A stretch of DNA of 64,000 nucleotides from [Clostridium] celerecrescens 18A (GTDB lineage Bacteria; Bacillota; Clostridia; Lachnospirales; Lachnospiraceae). The translations under genes and the position numbers were made by a program. The stretch's first letter is position 1, and the number at the start of each line of letters is the position of its first letter. Below the pieces are notes generated by a model that was not told the DNA's origin, searched no databases, and saw nothing but the letters and a program-made list of their open reading frames with translations. Shown here piece after piece: positions 25,870 to 50,284 of the stretch. Where the stretch lies: the NCBI RefSeq assembly GCF_002797975.1, contig NZ_PGET01000001.1:4452001-4516000 (forward strand). The letters run 5' to 3'.

Positions 25870-27006
25870 TTATGCGTGTTTGAAGGCTACTATCTTTTCA
25901 TTTGACTGCATCTTGACTGCATTATAATATGACTCAAGTTTATCCACTTTTACATCCGTGTATCCAAAATGAGTGTAAGTGTCCAGGGTGGTTTTTATAT
26001 CATCGTGTCCTAAGAGATATTGGGCCTGCTTAATATCTACGCCAGCTTTGTAAAGATCGCTTGCGTAGGTATGCCGGAAGATGTGCGCGGTAATATCACT
26101 TGGCAACGGTGTTTTTGATACGGCTTGCAGTTTCTGAAGGATTTTATTCCATCGTCCATTAAAGGAGCCTAGGCCTATATAGCTGCCAGTTTTTGATTTG
26201 AATAGAATTCCGGATTGCCCAGTTGTGTACTCAAGTAAGACTGGAAGTAGGAGGCTCGGTATAGGGATATACCGTTTTCCAGCGGTTGTCTTAGTGTACT
26301 CCTGTAAACAGCAACTAGTTTTTTTACTGGTAACCAATGTTTTTGATACCTCAATACGTCTCTTTTTAAAATCAATGTCGGACACATTTAATGCTAGTGC
26401 CTCACATTTTCTCATGCCAGTGTATAGAAGGAGGTTGATAAAGCAGCGTTCAAAGTCATTTAATTCCGCATTATCAATAAGCTGCCGTTCTGATGATGTT
26501 AAGGCTCGCTTCTTTGTCCTCCTTGCATTTTTAATGTCCTTCATGCCTGCTGTGATGTCTACTGCTAGTATTTCCTTATATACTGCATATCGTACTATTG
26601 CCCGGATTCTGCCTAAGCACGTATTATAACGTATGGGTTTACCGGATTTGATCATCGAACTTCGAAAGCTCTCAATGTGGCTCTGTTTTAAGTCTTTTAC
26701 TTTGATATCTCCGATAAAAGAATTAATGGTTCTTAGCTCGCTGCGAGTAACGGTTATGGATTGATCTGTAACACTCCCTATCTTTTCATTCGTAAGCCAT
26801 AACTCCGAAAGCTCTCGGAAGGTCATATTTATTTCCTGCAGAATAATCCCCTTATCTTTTAAACTCATGAAATCCCTATAATTTTTGTCCAGTTCTTTTT
26901 GCGTTTTTCCGTAAATGGTTTTACGGATCGGCTTACCGTTCCTTAGTCCTATTGTCACCTGTTTGGAGTATCGTCCATCCTTTCTTTTCTTCTTTTTCTC
27001 AGCCAT
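25870..27006 (-). CDS. int: Tyrosine-type site-specific integrase
   Basis: The 378-residue recombinase has an N-terminal arm-binding domain rich in Lys (KKKKRKDGRYSKQ), a SAM-like core-binding domain (about residues 60-160) and a catalytic domain. The catalytic domain has the active-site Arg in YTGMRKCEALAL, the H-x-x-R in HIFRHTYASDL, the late His in LLGHDDIKTT and the nucleophile in YTHFG. AAAGGAAA precedes the ATG at 27006. It integrates and, with an excisionase, excises the prophage. It is the first prophage gene at the left end and is transcribed towards the att junction. Confidence 0.93.
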   Translation of the reverse strand: MAEKKKKRKDGRYSKQVTIGLRNGKPIRKTIYGKTQKELDKNYRDFMSLKDKGIILQEINMTFRELSELWLTNEKIGSVTDQSITVTRSELRTINSFIGDIKVKDLKQSHIESFRSSMIKSGKPIRYNTCLGRIRAIVRYAVYKEILAVDITAGMKDIKNARRTKKRALTSSERQLIDNAELNDFERCFINLLLYTGMRKCEALALNVSDIDFKKRRIEVSKTLVTSKKTSCCLQEYTKTTAGKRYIPIPSLLLPVLLEYTTGQSGILFKSKTGSYIGLGSFNGRWNKILQKLQAVSKTPLPSDITAHIFRHTYASDLYKAGVDIKQAQYLLGHDDIKTTLDTYTHFGYTDVKVDKLESYYNAVKMQSNEKIVAFKHA

Positions 27007-27025
27007 AATATCATTTCCTTTCGTG

Positions 27026-27043
27026 AGTTGTGATGTCACAACT
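27026..27043. promoter_or_regulatory. Palindrome upstream of the integrase
   Basis: AGTTGTGA-TG-TCACAACT has 8-base perfect arms and sits 20 bases before the integrase start on the minus strand, overlapping its leader. It is a likely operator for a phage regulator. A related palindrome, GTTGTGATATCGCAAC, occurs at 47785-47800. Confidence 0.45.
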
Positions 27044-27194: not shown

Positions 27195-27797
27195 TTAGGG
27201 CGTTGGGTATATAACGTTCCCTGTATTATCAACTATCTTAAAATCATATTTACGCCGATCTATAGGAACGAGGCTTAATGCTTGGTATACATCTGAAAGA
27301 ACTCCCACATTTATAGCTGCTTCAACAAATTTCATTCCGCCTTCAGCTGAATTTGAATAGAGCGTAATGCTTTTAAGATCTTTAGTGTACTCATAATGAG
27401 TAAAAATTCCCTCGTATTTTTCATTGCTTATGAGTTTTTCTAGGTTTTCATCTATTCCGGTCTTTTTTAAGGCATCAACTGTAGATTTTCTTTCTGATTC
27501 CAGCATCATAACTGAATAATGTTTGTCATCATAAACAGAGGCGTTGAAATCGGAATCTTTCTCATTTAGTTTAATAACAAAATCATCAATTGTTTGATTA
27601 TAAGACAACATTGCCAGATAGACAATTTCTGTCATTTTGGCGGACTGTGTAGCCTTTACCTCTTTTTCCTCTAGCATATCTGAAGAAGCTGAGGTGGGAG
27701 CTGCTGTTTTCGTTTTTTTAGCTGATACATTGTTCCCGCAAGCAGTGGTAGCAAGCGCTGTGGAAAATACTAGAAGCAAAAATATTTTTTTCATCAT
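27195..27797 (-). CDS. Prophage lipoprotein, candidate superinfection exclusion factor
   Basis: The 200-residue protein starts MMKK followed by a hydrophobic stretch and a lipobox-like TTACGN, so it should be a lipid-anchored surface protein. A Lys/Thr/Ala/Ser-rich linker precedes a mixed alpha/beta domain with no family I recognise. GGGGTCGAG lies before the ATG. It sits in the lysogeny module between the integrase and the ImmA-like gene. In several Gram-positive phages this position holds a lipoprotein that blocks DNA entry of related phages (Ltp of phage TP-J34 is the known case). That role is inferred from position only. Confidence 0.7.
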   Translation of the reverse strand: MMKKIFLLLVFSTALATTACGNNVSAKKTKTAAPTSASSDMLEEKEVKATQSAKMTEIVYLAMLSYNQTIDDFVIKLNEKDSDFNASVYDDKHYSVMMLESERKSTVDALKKTGIDENLEKLISNEKYEGIFTHYEYTKDLKSITLYSNSAEGGMKFVEAAINVGVLSDVYQALSLVPIDRRKYDFKIVDNTGNVIYPTP

Positions 27798-27868
27798 ACT
27801 CGACCCCTTTTTCATTGTAATCATAAAAAGCCATAGGCTATTTTAATCTTATTTTGCTAAACTCAACT

Positions 27869-28336
27869 TTAATTAGTCATTTTGCATATATTGAATGGTT
27901 CAAAAAAAATTATGTATTCTTCCTTTTGCATGCCGAGGCCATATTTGGAATGATAACAATCTATTGCATCTTGGAGAAAAGACTCAGTTACGCAAAGATG
28001 TTCGGCAATCTCATATCGATTACAGCAACCAGCTTCCTTAGCAGAAATTATTTTTTCTATTGTCACCATTTTATTATAGGCCCAAAGCCTTGCAAAATTT
28101 TCCTGTTTCTGATTGGCGGTGCTTTCCATATTTAAAATTATACCAGAAGATGTATGATGGTGCCCTAATTCTTCAGCAAGTATACATGCTTTTTCTACAC
28201 ACGTTTCAATGCGATTACTAATTGCTATAGACCCATCACAGTATAAGCCTTTAATATTTTCACTCTTAAAAGGAACATAGTCGATGTGTAAACCAACGTC
28301 TGCCGCTTCCTGTTCTTCTTTTTCTAAGTCATTCAT
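27869..28336 (-). CDS. ImmA/IrrE family metallopeptidase-like protein
   Basis: The 155-residue protein carries LAEELGHHHTSSG near residue 60, the zinc-peptidase helix of the ImmA/IrrE family, in the phage variant where the first metal-binding His of HExxH reads Glu. These proteins cleave or inactivate the adjacent XRE repressor to trigger induction, as in ICEBs1. It lies immediately downstream of the repressor gene (23 bases), in the same transcript, which supports that role. Confidence 0.82.
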   Translation of the reverse strand: MNDLEKEEQEAADVGLHIDYVPFKSENIKGLYCDGSIAISNRIETCVEKACILAEELGHHHTSSGIILNMESTANQKQENFARLWAYNKMVTIEKIISAKEAGCCNRYEIAEHLCVTESFLQDAIDCYHSKYGLGMQKEEYIIFFEPFNICKMTN

Positions 28337-28359: not shown

Positions 28360-28668
28360 CTATTTATTTCGTCTGCTTTTCACAAACTCAACGTAATTCA
28401 TAATTTCTTCCATTTCCTCTTCTGACAGATCACCCCCGTCAAAATGAGCAGCTAAAGTTTCAGGAGCGCGATTATACTCTTGTCCTGTTGTTAGAAAATC
28501 CATTGATACATCGAAACGTTCTGCAATCTTCTGTAACTTATCTACTGACGGCGCAGACTTGTCCCATTTTGAAATGGTACCACTGCCGAAACCAAGCTCA
28601 CTTTCAAGGTTTGGAATACTAATCCCATTAATCTTGCAAAGTTCACGAATACGTTCTTTTAGTGACAT
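28360..28668 (-). CDS. XRE-family phage repressor (CI-like)
   Basis: The 102-residue protein has an N-terminal helix-turn-helix (about residues 6-60, ESELGFGSGTISKWDKSAPS as recognition region) and a short acidic C-terminal tail with LSEEEMEEIMNYVEFVKSRR. It is probably the lysogenic repressor that binds the GAAAATNTTC-type sites in the adjacent region. Its recognition-helix segment resembles that of the divergently placed Cro-like protein (ISKWDKSAPSVDKLQ versus ICKWNENIPSVDKIQ), as expected if both read the same operators. Confidence 0.85.
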   Translation of the reverse strand: MSLKERIRELCKINGISIPNLESELGFGSGTISKWDKSAPSVDKLQKIAERFDVSMDFLTTGQEYNRAPETLAAHFDGGDLSEEEMEEIMNYVEFVKSRRNK

Positions 28669-28711
28669 TTTATGCCTCCTTAAATTACATGAAAATTTTC
28701 CGGAAAAACCA

Positions 28712-28740
28712 TTGACAAACTGAAAATATTCATGTAATAT
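28712..28740 (+). promoter_or_regulatory. Rightward (lytic) promoter
   Basis: TTGACA (28712-28717), 17-base spacer, TAATAT (28735-28740). The operator TGAAAATATTCA lies within the spacer, so repressor binding would block polymerase. The first gene downstream is the Cro-like gene, 160 bases away. Confidence 0.8.
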
Positions 28741-28840
28741 AAAGACATGACATGAAAATATTCAATTAAATGCCCTTTCCACTCAATGAATGCCAATTAA
28801 GAAGTTATGTAGCATGAAAAAAATCAGTTTATCTATAAAG

Positions 28841-28869
28841 ATGATAGAATATTTTCGCCTATATGTCAA
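28841..28869 (-). promoter_or_regulatory. Leftward promoter of the repressor
   Basis: On the minus strand TTGACA (28864-28869), 17-base spacer, TATCAT (28841-28846). The operator GAATATTTTC lies in its spacer. It points towards the rightward promoter, so the two transcripts overlap for about 100 bases. Confidence 0.75.
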
Positions 28870-28908
28870 TAGTTTTAGATGAAAATTTTCAATTAAGGAG
28901 GTGTTTTT

Positions 28909-29106
28909 GTGTTTTTCGACAAGATAAGAGCTCTCGCAGAGGAAAAAGGAATTTCAATTTACAAATTAGAAAAGGATGCAGAACTTTCAAAAGGTAGCAT
29001 TTGTAAGTGGAATGAGAACATTCCGTCTGTAGATAAGATTCAAAGGGTTGCAAAATTATTGGGTGTAACCGTAGACAGCTTACTAGAAGACTCCCAGGAT
29101 ACATAA
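28909..29106 (+). CDS. XRE-family Cro-like regulator
   Basis: The 65-residue protein is a minimal helix-turn-helix domain (FFDKIRALAEEKGISIYKLEKD..., recognition region KGSICKWNENIPS). It starts at GTG with AAGGAGG eight bases upstream. It is the first rightward gene and resembles the repressor's DNA-binding part, so it is likely the Cro-type switch protein. Confidence 0.82.
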   Translation: MFFDKIRALAEEKGISIYKLEKDAELSKGSICKWNENIPSVDKIQRVAKLLGVTVDSLLEDSQDT

Positions 29107-49264: not shown

Positions 49265-50284
49265 ATGCCAAGAGTAGAAGAATTATTAACACCCAGGGAT
49301 CTGATTGATTACACAAAGGAACGTACCCAGGAAGCCTATATGGGGGAATATTTATTCCCGGAAGACAAAAAGGAGGCGCTGGAAATTGACATGGTAAAGG
49401 GCGCTAGCAACTTACCTGTATCCGCAAAGGTCCATGCTTTTGATACTGAGGCCGAGATCGGATCCAGAGAAGGCATCGAGGTATTCACTCAGGATCTGGC
49501 TCTGATCAAAAAGAAAATCAAGATTCCAGAGAAAACAATCATCGCTTTGGAAAGTCCTAGAAATGACCGGGAAGAGGAGGATATGATTAAGAATATTTTC
49601 CGTGATGTAGATAATCTGGTTGCTTCTGTCCGTACTCGTGTAGAGTGTATGAGAATGGAGGCCCTTTCCACTGGTAAGATCGTAATTAATGAAAATGGGG
49701 TCAAAGCCTCCATTGATTACGGAATGCCGGCAGAGCATAAGTCAAGTAAGACTTGGCTTTCCGGAAGTCCCACGATCCTGGAAGACATGGAAGAGATGGT
49801 GGAAACCATAGTGGATGATACCGGATTCACTCCTGTTAGAGCGTTGACTTCCAAGAAGAACCTAAGCGCCATCTTGCGTGATGAAAGGATCCGGGCAGCT
49901 GTGTTTGGTGTAAACAGTTCCAAGCTTTTGACCGTGGCAGAGCTTAACGCATTTCTTGCCCAGCAAAAGCTTCCTCAGATTGCTATTTACGATAAAAAGT
50001 ACCGTATTCAGGATACAAAAGGAAAATACAGTGCAAAACGTTTCCTTCCTGAAAATGCTTTTGTCATGATGCCCGAGGGTAAGATGGGAGATACCTTCTA
50101 CGGAGTGACTGCAGAGGAGTTAGAACTTAGAAGAAATTCTGATGTTGAAATTTCCGAGGTTGGGAAGATTATTGTCTGCCAGTACAATACCATTGATCCG
50201 GTGGCCAAGTGGATCAAGGCCGTGGCTACGGCGCTGCCTTCCTTCCCTTATGCCGATCAGGTATTTGTTGCTACCATTTCATAA
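49265..50284 (+). CDS. Major capsid protein, lambda gpE family
   Basis: The 339-residue protein matches the phage capsid E family. It has VEELLTPRDLIDYTKERTQ near the start, REGIEVFTQDLALIKKKIKI, the long helix region with VASVRTRVECMRMEALSTGK and a beta-rich C-terminus with RFLPENAFVMMPEG. It forms the HK97-fold shell. GGAGGGCTAAGAC precedes the ATG. Confidence 0.88.
   Translation: MPRVEELLTPRDLIDYTKERTQEAYMGEYLFPEDKKEALEIDMVKGASNLPVSAKVHAFDTEAEIGSREGIEVFTQDLALIKKKIKIPEKTIIALESPRNDREEEDMIKNIFRDVDNLVASVRTRVECMRMEALSTGKIVINENGVKASIDYGMPAEHKSSKTWLSGSPTILEDMEEMVETIVDDTGFTPVRALTSKKNLSAILRDERIRAAVFGVNSSKLLTVAELNAFLAQQKLPQIAIYDKKYRIQDTKGKYSAKRFLPENAFVMMPEGKMGDTFYGVTAEELELRRNSDVEISEVGKIIVCQYNTIDPVAKWIKAVATALPSFPYADQVFVATIS

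Follow-up and report, generated by a model that had tools for sequence, protein, structure and literature searches.

The window, by which we mean the whole 64-kb stretch of DNA analysed here, includes the lysogeny module of a prophage whose gene set is myovirus-like. There are 19 open reading frames of at least 170 amino acids between 37.8 and 64 kb, and scanning 10 of them returned terminase, portal, minor and major head, tail sheath, tape measure, and baseplate matches, which is why we call the element myovirus-like. The lysogeny module includes a cI-like gene on the reverse strand (28360 to 28668) encoding an XRE helix-turn-helix repressor of 102 amino acids with the C-terminal motif T71-L72-A73-A74|H75-F-D-G. 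Its domain matches are limited to helix-turn-helix families, with HTH_3 and Phage_CI_repr barely over their cut-offs and HTH_19 under its own, and it matches PHROG transcriptional regulator families. Adjoining cI on the same strand, as in ImmR/ImmA modules, is the gene for an M78/ImmA-like metalloprotease with an EELGHHH motif (27869 to 28336), identified by its Peptidase_M78 and phrog_87 metallo-protease matches and by our motif survey. Further leftward come an open reading frame of 209 amino acids (27195 to 27824, reverse strand) and a tyrosine-type integrase (25870 to 27039, reverse strand; Phage_integrase, phrog_1) that ends the leftward lysogeny module. The product of the 209-amino-acid frame looks lipoprotein-like by eye and had no Pfam or PHROG match at an E value of 0.001; its position suggests a superinfection exclusion gene or a novel lysogeny gene. 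On the forward strand, a cro-like gene with a GTG start (28909 to 29106) encodes a 65-amino-acid XRE helix-turn-helix protein matching HTH_26 (Cro/C1-type) and HTH_3, the latter being above cut-off in both the CI-like and the Cro-like proteins, and rightward of it lie early genes that include those for a Sak4-like protein and a primase/helicase. Among phage records, near DNA relatives came down to a single phage, present as two records, matching over 5% of the query. Relatives of the CI protein were found in 12 named genomes, 3 of them titled Lachnospiraceae and the others Anaerocolumna, Mediterraneibacter, Candidatus Blautia, Dysosmobacter, Carnobacterium, and the like.

The intergenic gap between cI and cro is 240 bp long, and in a promoter scan the strongest promoter on each strand points at the other. 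The cro-ward, lytic promoter (28712 to 28740, forward strand) consists of a -35 hexamer TTGACA (28712 to 28717) and a -10 hexamer TAATAT (28735 to 28740) separated by a 17-base spacer, with a predicted start at about 28747. The cI-ward, lysogenic promoter (28841 to 28869, reverse strand) has TTGACA at 28869 to 28864 and TATCAT at 28846 to 28841, again with a spacer of 17, and a predicted start at about 28834. The two match 10 of 12 and 11 of 12 consensus bases and score 10.0 and 12.2, respectively, on a single fixed sigma-A-like matrix built on textbook hexamer frequencies. In 1,000 dinucleotide shuffles of the gap, the observed best score was reached in 3.4% for the cro-ward and 0.2% for the cI-ward direction, and not one shuffle contained a facing pair with both scores at or above 10. 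The next separate candidates were weaker (5.8 versus 10.0 cro-ward, and 7.7 versus 12.2 cI-ward); re-spacings of the same cro-ward -35 hexamer, scoring 8.5 and 6.2, do not count as further sites. We regard the predicted facing orientation as close to certain, the start points of both transcripts being inferred from the promoter matches. The sequence-only reading had placed two facing promoters at exactly these coordinates, and the consensus matches, the shuffles, and the relatives described below all bear it out. It had further proposed a transcript overlap of about 100 bases, of which the overlap stands and the length shrinks to a predicted 88 bp (28747 to 28834, transcribed on both strands) on the assumption that each start lies 7 bases past its -10 hexamer. 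Facing lytic and lysogenic promoters with overlapping transcripts, as predicted here from the DNA, are the arrangement of the P2/186 type, and the back-to-back promoters with operators between them that mark the lambda type are not what the window contains.

The predicted leaders, of about 162 and 166 nucleotides, are complementary over 88 nucleotides at their 5' ends, and they could in principle act as antisense RNA, so that leader pairing, not polymerase traffic, would tune cI and cro. The overlap, however, reaches neither the cro ribosome-binding site (28895 to 28901) nor that of cI (28674 to 28681), and we consider an antisense switch of this kind very unlikely. We also considered that the locus might be an ordinary back-to-back switch, with true starts that are weaker and nearer each gene and with the facing matches as decoys. 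Back-to-back alternative promoters were scanned for in the gap, and none of quality was found: a weak leftward match at 28765 to 28736 (TTGAAT-18-TATATT, score 7.7) would suit such a switch, but no separate cro-ward site rises above 5.8.

The relatives weigh further on this point. Loci related through CI or Cro were drawn from viral contigs, from named and other genomes, and from annotated phages and plasmids, and one and the same matrix was used to pick out the highest-scoring sigma-A-like promoter per strand at every divergent CI/Cro pair. The first set of 130 records, made up of the window and 129 loci, had a divergent helix-turn-helix pair in 72 records and none in 58, and 39 gaps were left after those more than 80% identical had been merged; some genuine switches, for example, those of TPW22 and PSA, ended up in the class without a pair when the profile failed to detect the partner. 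The best promoters faced each other in 37 of these 39 non-redundant gaps. Their scores averaged 12.3 (cro-ward) and 11.6 (cI-ward), compared with 7.0 and 7.2 for shuffled gaps, 29% of which faced by chance. With facing pairs this frequent, and with mean scores above 11, a back-to-back switch hidden behind decoys becomes highly improbable.

A wider set that included more distant repressors (216 records, 107 with pairs and 109 without, reduced to 63 by merging) gave 43 facing and 20 back-to-back layouts, a proportion that is not a census, since sampling was by similarity to the window CI. The queries used to find relatives were the window CI, its Cro, and alignments of facing-type CI proteins, a choice that favored the facing clade, and the 80 stretches added for the wider set were chosen from longer match listings. 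One of the two promoters scored below 9 in 3 of the 43 facing calls, compared with 8 of the 20 back-to-back calls. Across the 43 facing loci the overlap, measured as the distance between starts, had a median of 66 bp (quartiles, 62 to 85 bp), two calls falling as low as 15 and 16 bp, and the -35 hexamer was an exact TTGACA in 38 cro-ward and 26 cI-ward promoters. The CI/Cro gap was longer in facing loci than in back-to-back loci (median, 232 versus 152 bp).

All six control phages were oriented correctly by the scan, with lambda, TP901-1, r1t, and phi11 called back-to-back and 186 and P2 called facing, with overlaps of 64 and 37 bp, respectively. Lambda, r1t, and phi11, among these controls, have back-to-back layouts. 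The -10 signals picked by the scan were the annotated ones in 186, P2, and TPW22, and the cI-ward control scores of lambda (6.3), 186 (6.8), and P2 (5.8) were no higher than the shuffle level. Thirteen named phage and plasmid stretches were then chosen from 309, 187, and 30 matching records, and 12 were scanned, L070 being left out because it ends too close to its Cro gene. Ten of the 12 were facing: TPW22, PSA, B025, Eltigre, bIL312, GBSInt2.2 (with a CI/Cro gap of 698 bp), phiMH1, Javan207, and plasmid prophages of Enterococcus faecalis and Staphylococcus aureus, the last with a weak cI-ward score of 7.9. Phage EW and a Clostridioides difficile plasmid prophage were not facing. Listeria phage A118 is back-to-back by both annotation and scan. 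That the predicted facing promoters are real, and well conserved in diverged relatives, is strongly supported by these comparisons.

Promoter layout proved to follow repressor ancestry. In a tree of 73 CI N termini, all 50 facing rows fell into one clade of 52 rows (support, 100/96), only 2 rows of that clade were back-to-back, and all 21 rows outside it were back-to-back. The layout label needs 3 changes on this tree, against a mean of 20 when labels are shuffled. The two back-to-back rows inside the clade are the C. difficile plasmid prophage and L163, which sits on a long branch and whose placement is unsure. Ten rows, labeled from the scan of named phages and plasmids, had been added to the tree (TP901-1, phi11, TPW22, PSA, Eltigre, bIL312, GBSInt2.2, phiMH1, and the S. 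aureus and C. difficile plasmid prophages), and B025 was omitted because it nearly duplicates PSA. With 90 columns the alignment is short, bootstrap support is unsettled, 12 rows are on long branches, and the tree is unrooted; for these reasons we claim an association of layout with the clade and not a dated origin. The general expectation from which the window had been judged, that lambda-type Gram-positive switches are usually back-to-back, holds for TP901-1, but it does not extend to a large Bacillota repressor clade in which 50 of 52 rows are facing, nor to TPW22, which is annotated as facing. The companion statement that the promoters of 186 and P2 converge agrees with both the phage records and our scan.

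Two phages of Gram-positive hosts are instructive here. In the rap region of TPW22 (AF066865), the -35 and -10 signals that the depositor annotated for rap and orf6 face each other as in the window, the overlap is 103 bp in our scan, and the repressor lies inside the facing clade, whereas the operator sequences differ from those of the window. TP901-1 resembles the window in that its CI gene is followed by a metalloprotease gene and faces away from a small partner gene. However, its promoters are back to back (PMC7250872, and our scan), and its MOR protein is described as not binding DNA alone (PMC11149083). The TP901-1 arrangement of back-to-back promoters around a central operator is not found in the window.

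Five predicted operators, O1 to O5, were called in the gap from the word GAAAATWTTC. O1 (GAAAATTTTC, 28691 to 28700, no strand assigned) lies upstream of the cro-ward -35 hexamer, O2 (GAAAATATTC, 28722 to 28731, forward strand) inside the cro-ward promoter spacer, and O3 (GAAAATATTC, 28754 to 28763, forward strand) just 3' of the predicted cro-ward start. O4 (GAAAATATTC, 28847 to 28856, reverse strand) is inside the cI-ward promoter spacer, and O5 (GAAAATTTTC, 28881 to 28890, no strand assigned) is upstream of the cI-ward -35 hexamer and adjoins the cro ribosome-binding site, AAGGAGG. One operator in each 17-base spacer and three more around them is what had been read from the letters, and the five sites are indeed at those places. 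The strict word has 8 strand hits in the 64-kb window against 0.89 expected, 7 of them, belonging to the five sites, inside the 200-bp switch stretch; genome-wide there are 85 strand hits in 5.27 Mb. A looser word, TGAAAATWTTCA, with up to 2 mismatches was not enriched over the window (35 found versus 29.2 expected), so that it is the strict word, together with its clustering, that carries the operator claim. A further GAAAATATTC at 49591 to 49600 was rejected as an operator; it falls inside the predicted major head gene (49265 to 50284) and fits the chance rate. Elsewhere in the genome, two GAAAATTTTC sites 27 bp apart (G000:C1:3244758-3244794) could be operators of another regulator.

Operator spacing in the window is 31 bp from O1 to O2, 32 bp from O2 to O3, and 34 bp from O4 to O5. 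The corresponding medians in relatives are 31 bp (quartiles, 29 to 32), 33 bp (31 to 37), and 31 bp (25 to 33), although the search for sites in relatives was confined to fixed zones, and this restricts the spread. All three spacings are near three helical turns, and the O3-O4 distance is variable. The operator word itself varies between phages, and sites within a locus tend to match: for every one of 7 site pairs compared over 37 facing loci, the within-locus similarity was equaled in 0 of 2,000 permutations. The effect concerns the average; individual loci are above their own cross-locus median in 26 to 33 of the 37 cases and reach the 95th percentile in only 4 to 8. The proteins vary in step as well. 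Across 43 loci, CI and Cro from one locus share on average 53% identity in the recognition helix, against 29% when permuted, and 38% against 31% in the rest of the domain, with 0 of 5,000 permutations as good in either case. Since the recognition helices co-vary, both proteins probably read the same operator word, and CI and Cro thus probably share operators in the window.

Several smaller features of the gaps caught our attention. The five bases before the cI-ward -10 hexamer (28847 to 28851 in the window) read TATTC in 18 and TAATC in 6 of the 43 facing loci and are kept even where the remaining operator word differs; at the cro-ward promoter, the commonest five-base word in that position occurs in only 4 of 43. 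By eye, a TACCAgACA-like stretch lies just 3' of the cI-ward -10 hexamer, near the predicted cI start, in L009, L016, L038, L043, and L044, and it is not clearly present in the window. A small inverted repeat, TCGTTCCCCAACGA, lies between the predicted starts and is common to L065, L066, and L067 (PSA, B025, and Eltigre).

As in P2 and 186, the lytic and lysogenic promoters face each other and predicted operators (O1 to O3) surround and enter the cro-ward promoter; in the window their word is common with O4 and O5. P2 offers two further likenesses, a repressor site (called O1 in NC_001895) between the -35 and -10 hexamers of Pe, just as O2 is placed in the window, and a repressor that is also short, encoded by a gene of 300 nucleotides. 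In the account given in PMC7498355, lambdoid phages in general have back-to-back promoters with CI and Cro acting at common operators, whereas P2-like phages have facing promoters and, as their second regulator, the excisionase Cox or Apl, with operators distinct from those of the repressor. The second regulator in the window is not an excisionase but a Cro-like XRE protein (HTH_26/HTH_3) whose recognition helix co-varies with that of CI, operator-like sites are found on the repressor's own promoter as well, and an M78 gene lies beside cI. The window switch thus combines a P2-like layout with lambdoid regulators, and we file it under neither type.

The M78 gene and the tail of CI point to a possible route to induction. 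The tail reads ETLAAHFDGGDLSEEEMEEIMNYVEF, and the residues of its AAH are A73, A74, and H75. The repressor of Listeria phage phi10403S likewise lies beside an M78-type (DUF955) protease, MpaR, in an ImmR/ImmA-like pair (PMC6872733). As reported there, MpaR cleaves the A74-H75 bond in the TIAAHID of this repressor, part of the conserved region TIAAHIDxxxxEExxxxILAYIE. The window CI has TLAAHFD at this place, and its TLAAH motif and residue numbers, A74|H75, are the same as those of the repressor that MpaR cuts. An M78 neighbor was found in 30 of 63 loci, 7 of the EExxH type and 23 of the HExxH type, and an [LI]AAH motif accompanied all 7 EExxH-type proteins but occurred in just 1 of the remaining 56 loci. 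The motif is seen with either promoter layout. HExxH is the M78 active-site motif; it is absent from the M78 protein of the window, which has EELGHHH instead. The protease may be an anti-repressor that cleaves CI, with A74|H75 as the candidate site, a prediction made from the motifs. The FDGxxL core of the repressor tail was also tried as a correlate of M78 and set aside as a loose association (17 of 21 loci with the core and 13 of 42 without it).

Listeria phage A118 carries a motif of the same kind (LLAAHID) and yet has back-to-back promoters, which argues that the protease module and the promoter layout are independent. Inside the facing clade, the CI proteins of L013, L046, L075, and L091 end in long tails of LexA-like appearance, judged by eye, and the survey of 63 loci found no M78 neighbor for any of these four. 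Taken with A118, they make the induction end look exchangeable: the promoter layout seems to go with the DNA-binding end of CI, with induction modules swapped behind it.

How might such a switch work? We think it likely that the locus is a lysis-lysogeny switch in which a CI/Cro pair acts through a common operator word on two facing sigma-A-type promoters, with indirect self-activation of CI as in 186 and with cleavage of CI by the M78 protease; binding, the operator preferences of CI versus Cro, interference, and cleavage are steps that we infer. In a lysogen, CI on O1 to O3 would shut the cro-ward promoter. Because each promoter is located next to the point where the opposite gene begins, RNA polymerase from either one must cross the opposing promoter, and shutting the cro-ward promoter would remove oncoming polymerases from the cI-ward one, an indirect activation by CI of its own gene. 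In this one respect the window switch probably works like that of 186, whose record describes convergent pR as inhibiting pL, and CI as activating pL by repressing pR. At high CI levels O4 and O5 would also be occupied, and CI would limit itself. In lytic growth, the cro-ward promoter would fire across the cI-ward promoter, and Cro on O4 and O5 would silence cI. Upon induction, the M78 protease would cut CI at A74|H75 and part its DNA-binding domain from its C-terminal helix. CI bound at O1 to O3 would stand in the path of its own message, and since lambda CI, lambda Cro, and 186 CI have been described as poor roadblocks (PMC10310618), this need not shut cI off.

The sequence-only reading had also given transcriptional interference a share in the decision, which the analogy with 186 makes plausible. 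In that phage pR interferes with pL and not the reverse (PMC7498355), whereas in the window the cro-ward promoter scores below the cI-ward one (10.0 versus 12.2), and interference could accordingly be mutual or small. It might even be that the facing layout has been kept for operator spacing or leader RNA and not for polymerase collision. Along these lines, collision between the facing promoters would be irrelevant, CI and Cro would block directly, and the layout would serve to give each promoter its own operators clear of the hexamers of the other. Each promoter does have its own predicted spacer operator and outer operator, a toggle is possible by repression alone, and a similar argument from space has been made for P2-like phages (PMC7498355). 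Nevertheless, a polymerase must still cross the other promoter where starts lie 62 to 85 bp apart (the quartiles of the 43 facing loci) or 88 bp apart, as in the window, and 186, with an overlap of 64 bp by the same scan, is recorded as showing interference. We therefore hold direct repression without collision to be rather unlikely, if a serious competitor to the 186-like scheme.

Convergent lysogeny promoters in this setting have been proposed before. For prophages phi5 and phi12 of Clostridium clostridioforme LM41, convergent promoters were predicted and 186-like interference was put forward (PMC11318856), so the basic idea of convergent promoters with interference is not new. These prophages resemble the window in having an ImmR/ImmA-like module, a second helix-turn-helix gene on the opposite strand, and convergent promoters between the two. 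They differ in being two cases called by a promoter predictor, with divergent promoters predicted in the same paper for ten CI/Cro-type prophages and phi2; the word operator is absent from its main text, and the section on these promoters contains neither conservation nor phylogeny. Among the matches listed in our literature search, judged mostly by title and the start of the abstract, the LM41 paper was the only one with convergent promoters in a Gram-positive prophage, and the portions consulted of PMC8516035 (on phi13) and PMC10432266 have no convergent lysogeny promoters. An earlier account of conservation across the clade, of operator co-variation, or of association with a clade was likewise not among the matches listed, in which the subscription literature is thinly covered.

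A broader proposal would be that a Bacillota-wide repressor clade has its own class of switch, in which CI and Cro share five operators, the promoters face each other with some 60 to 100 bp transcribed on both strands, mutual interference has been selected independently of P2 and 186, and the induction end (an M78-cleaved tail, a LexA-like domain, or others) is freely swapped; we see this as evenly poised between right and wrong. The family, which includes Listeria PSA, Lactococcus TPW22 and bIL312, and Paenibacillus Eltigre, mixes lambdoid regulators with a P2-like layout, and the boundary of the clade predicts, from the repressor sequence, which promoter layout to expect. Its approximately forty diverged copies amount to replicates with which to ask if phage decisions are truly designed around polymerase collision.
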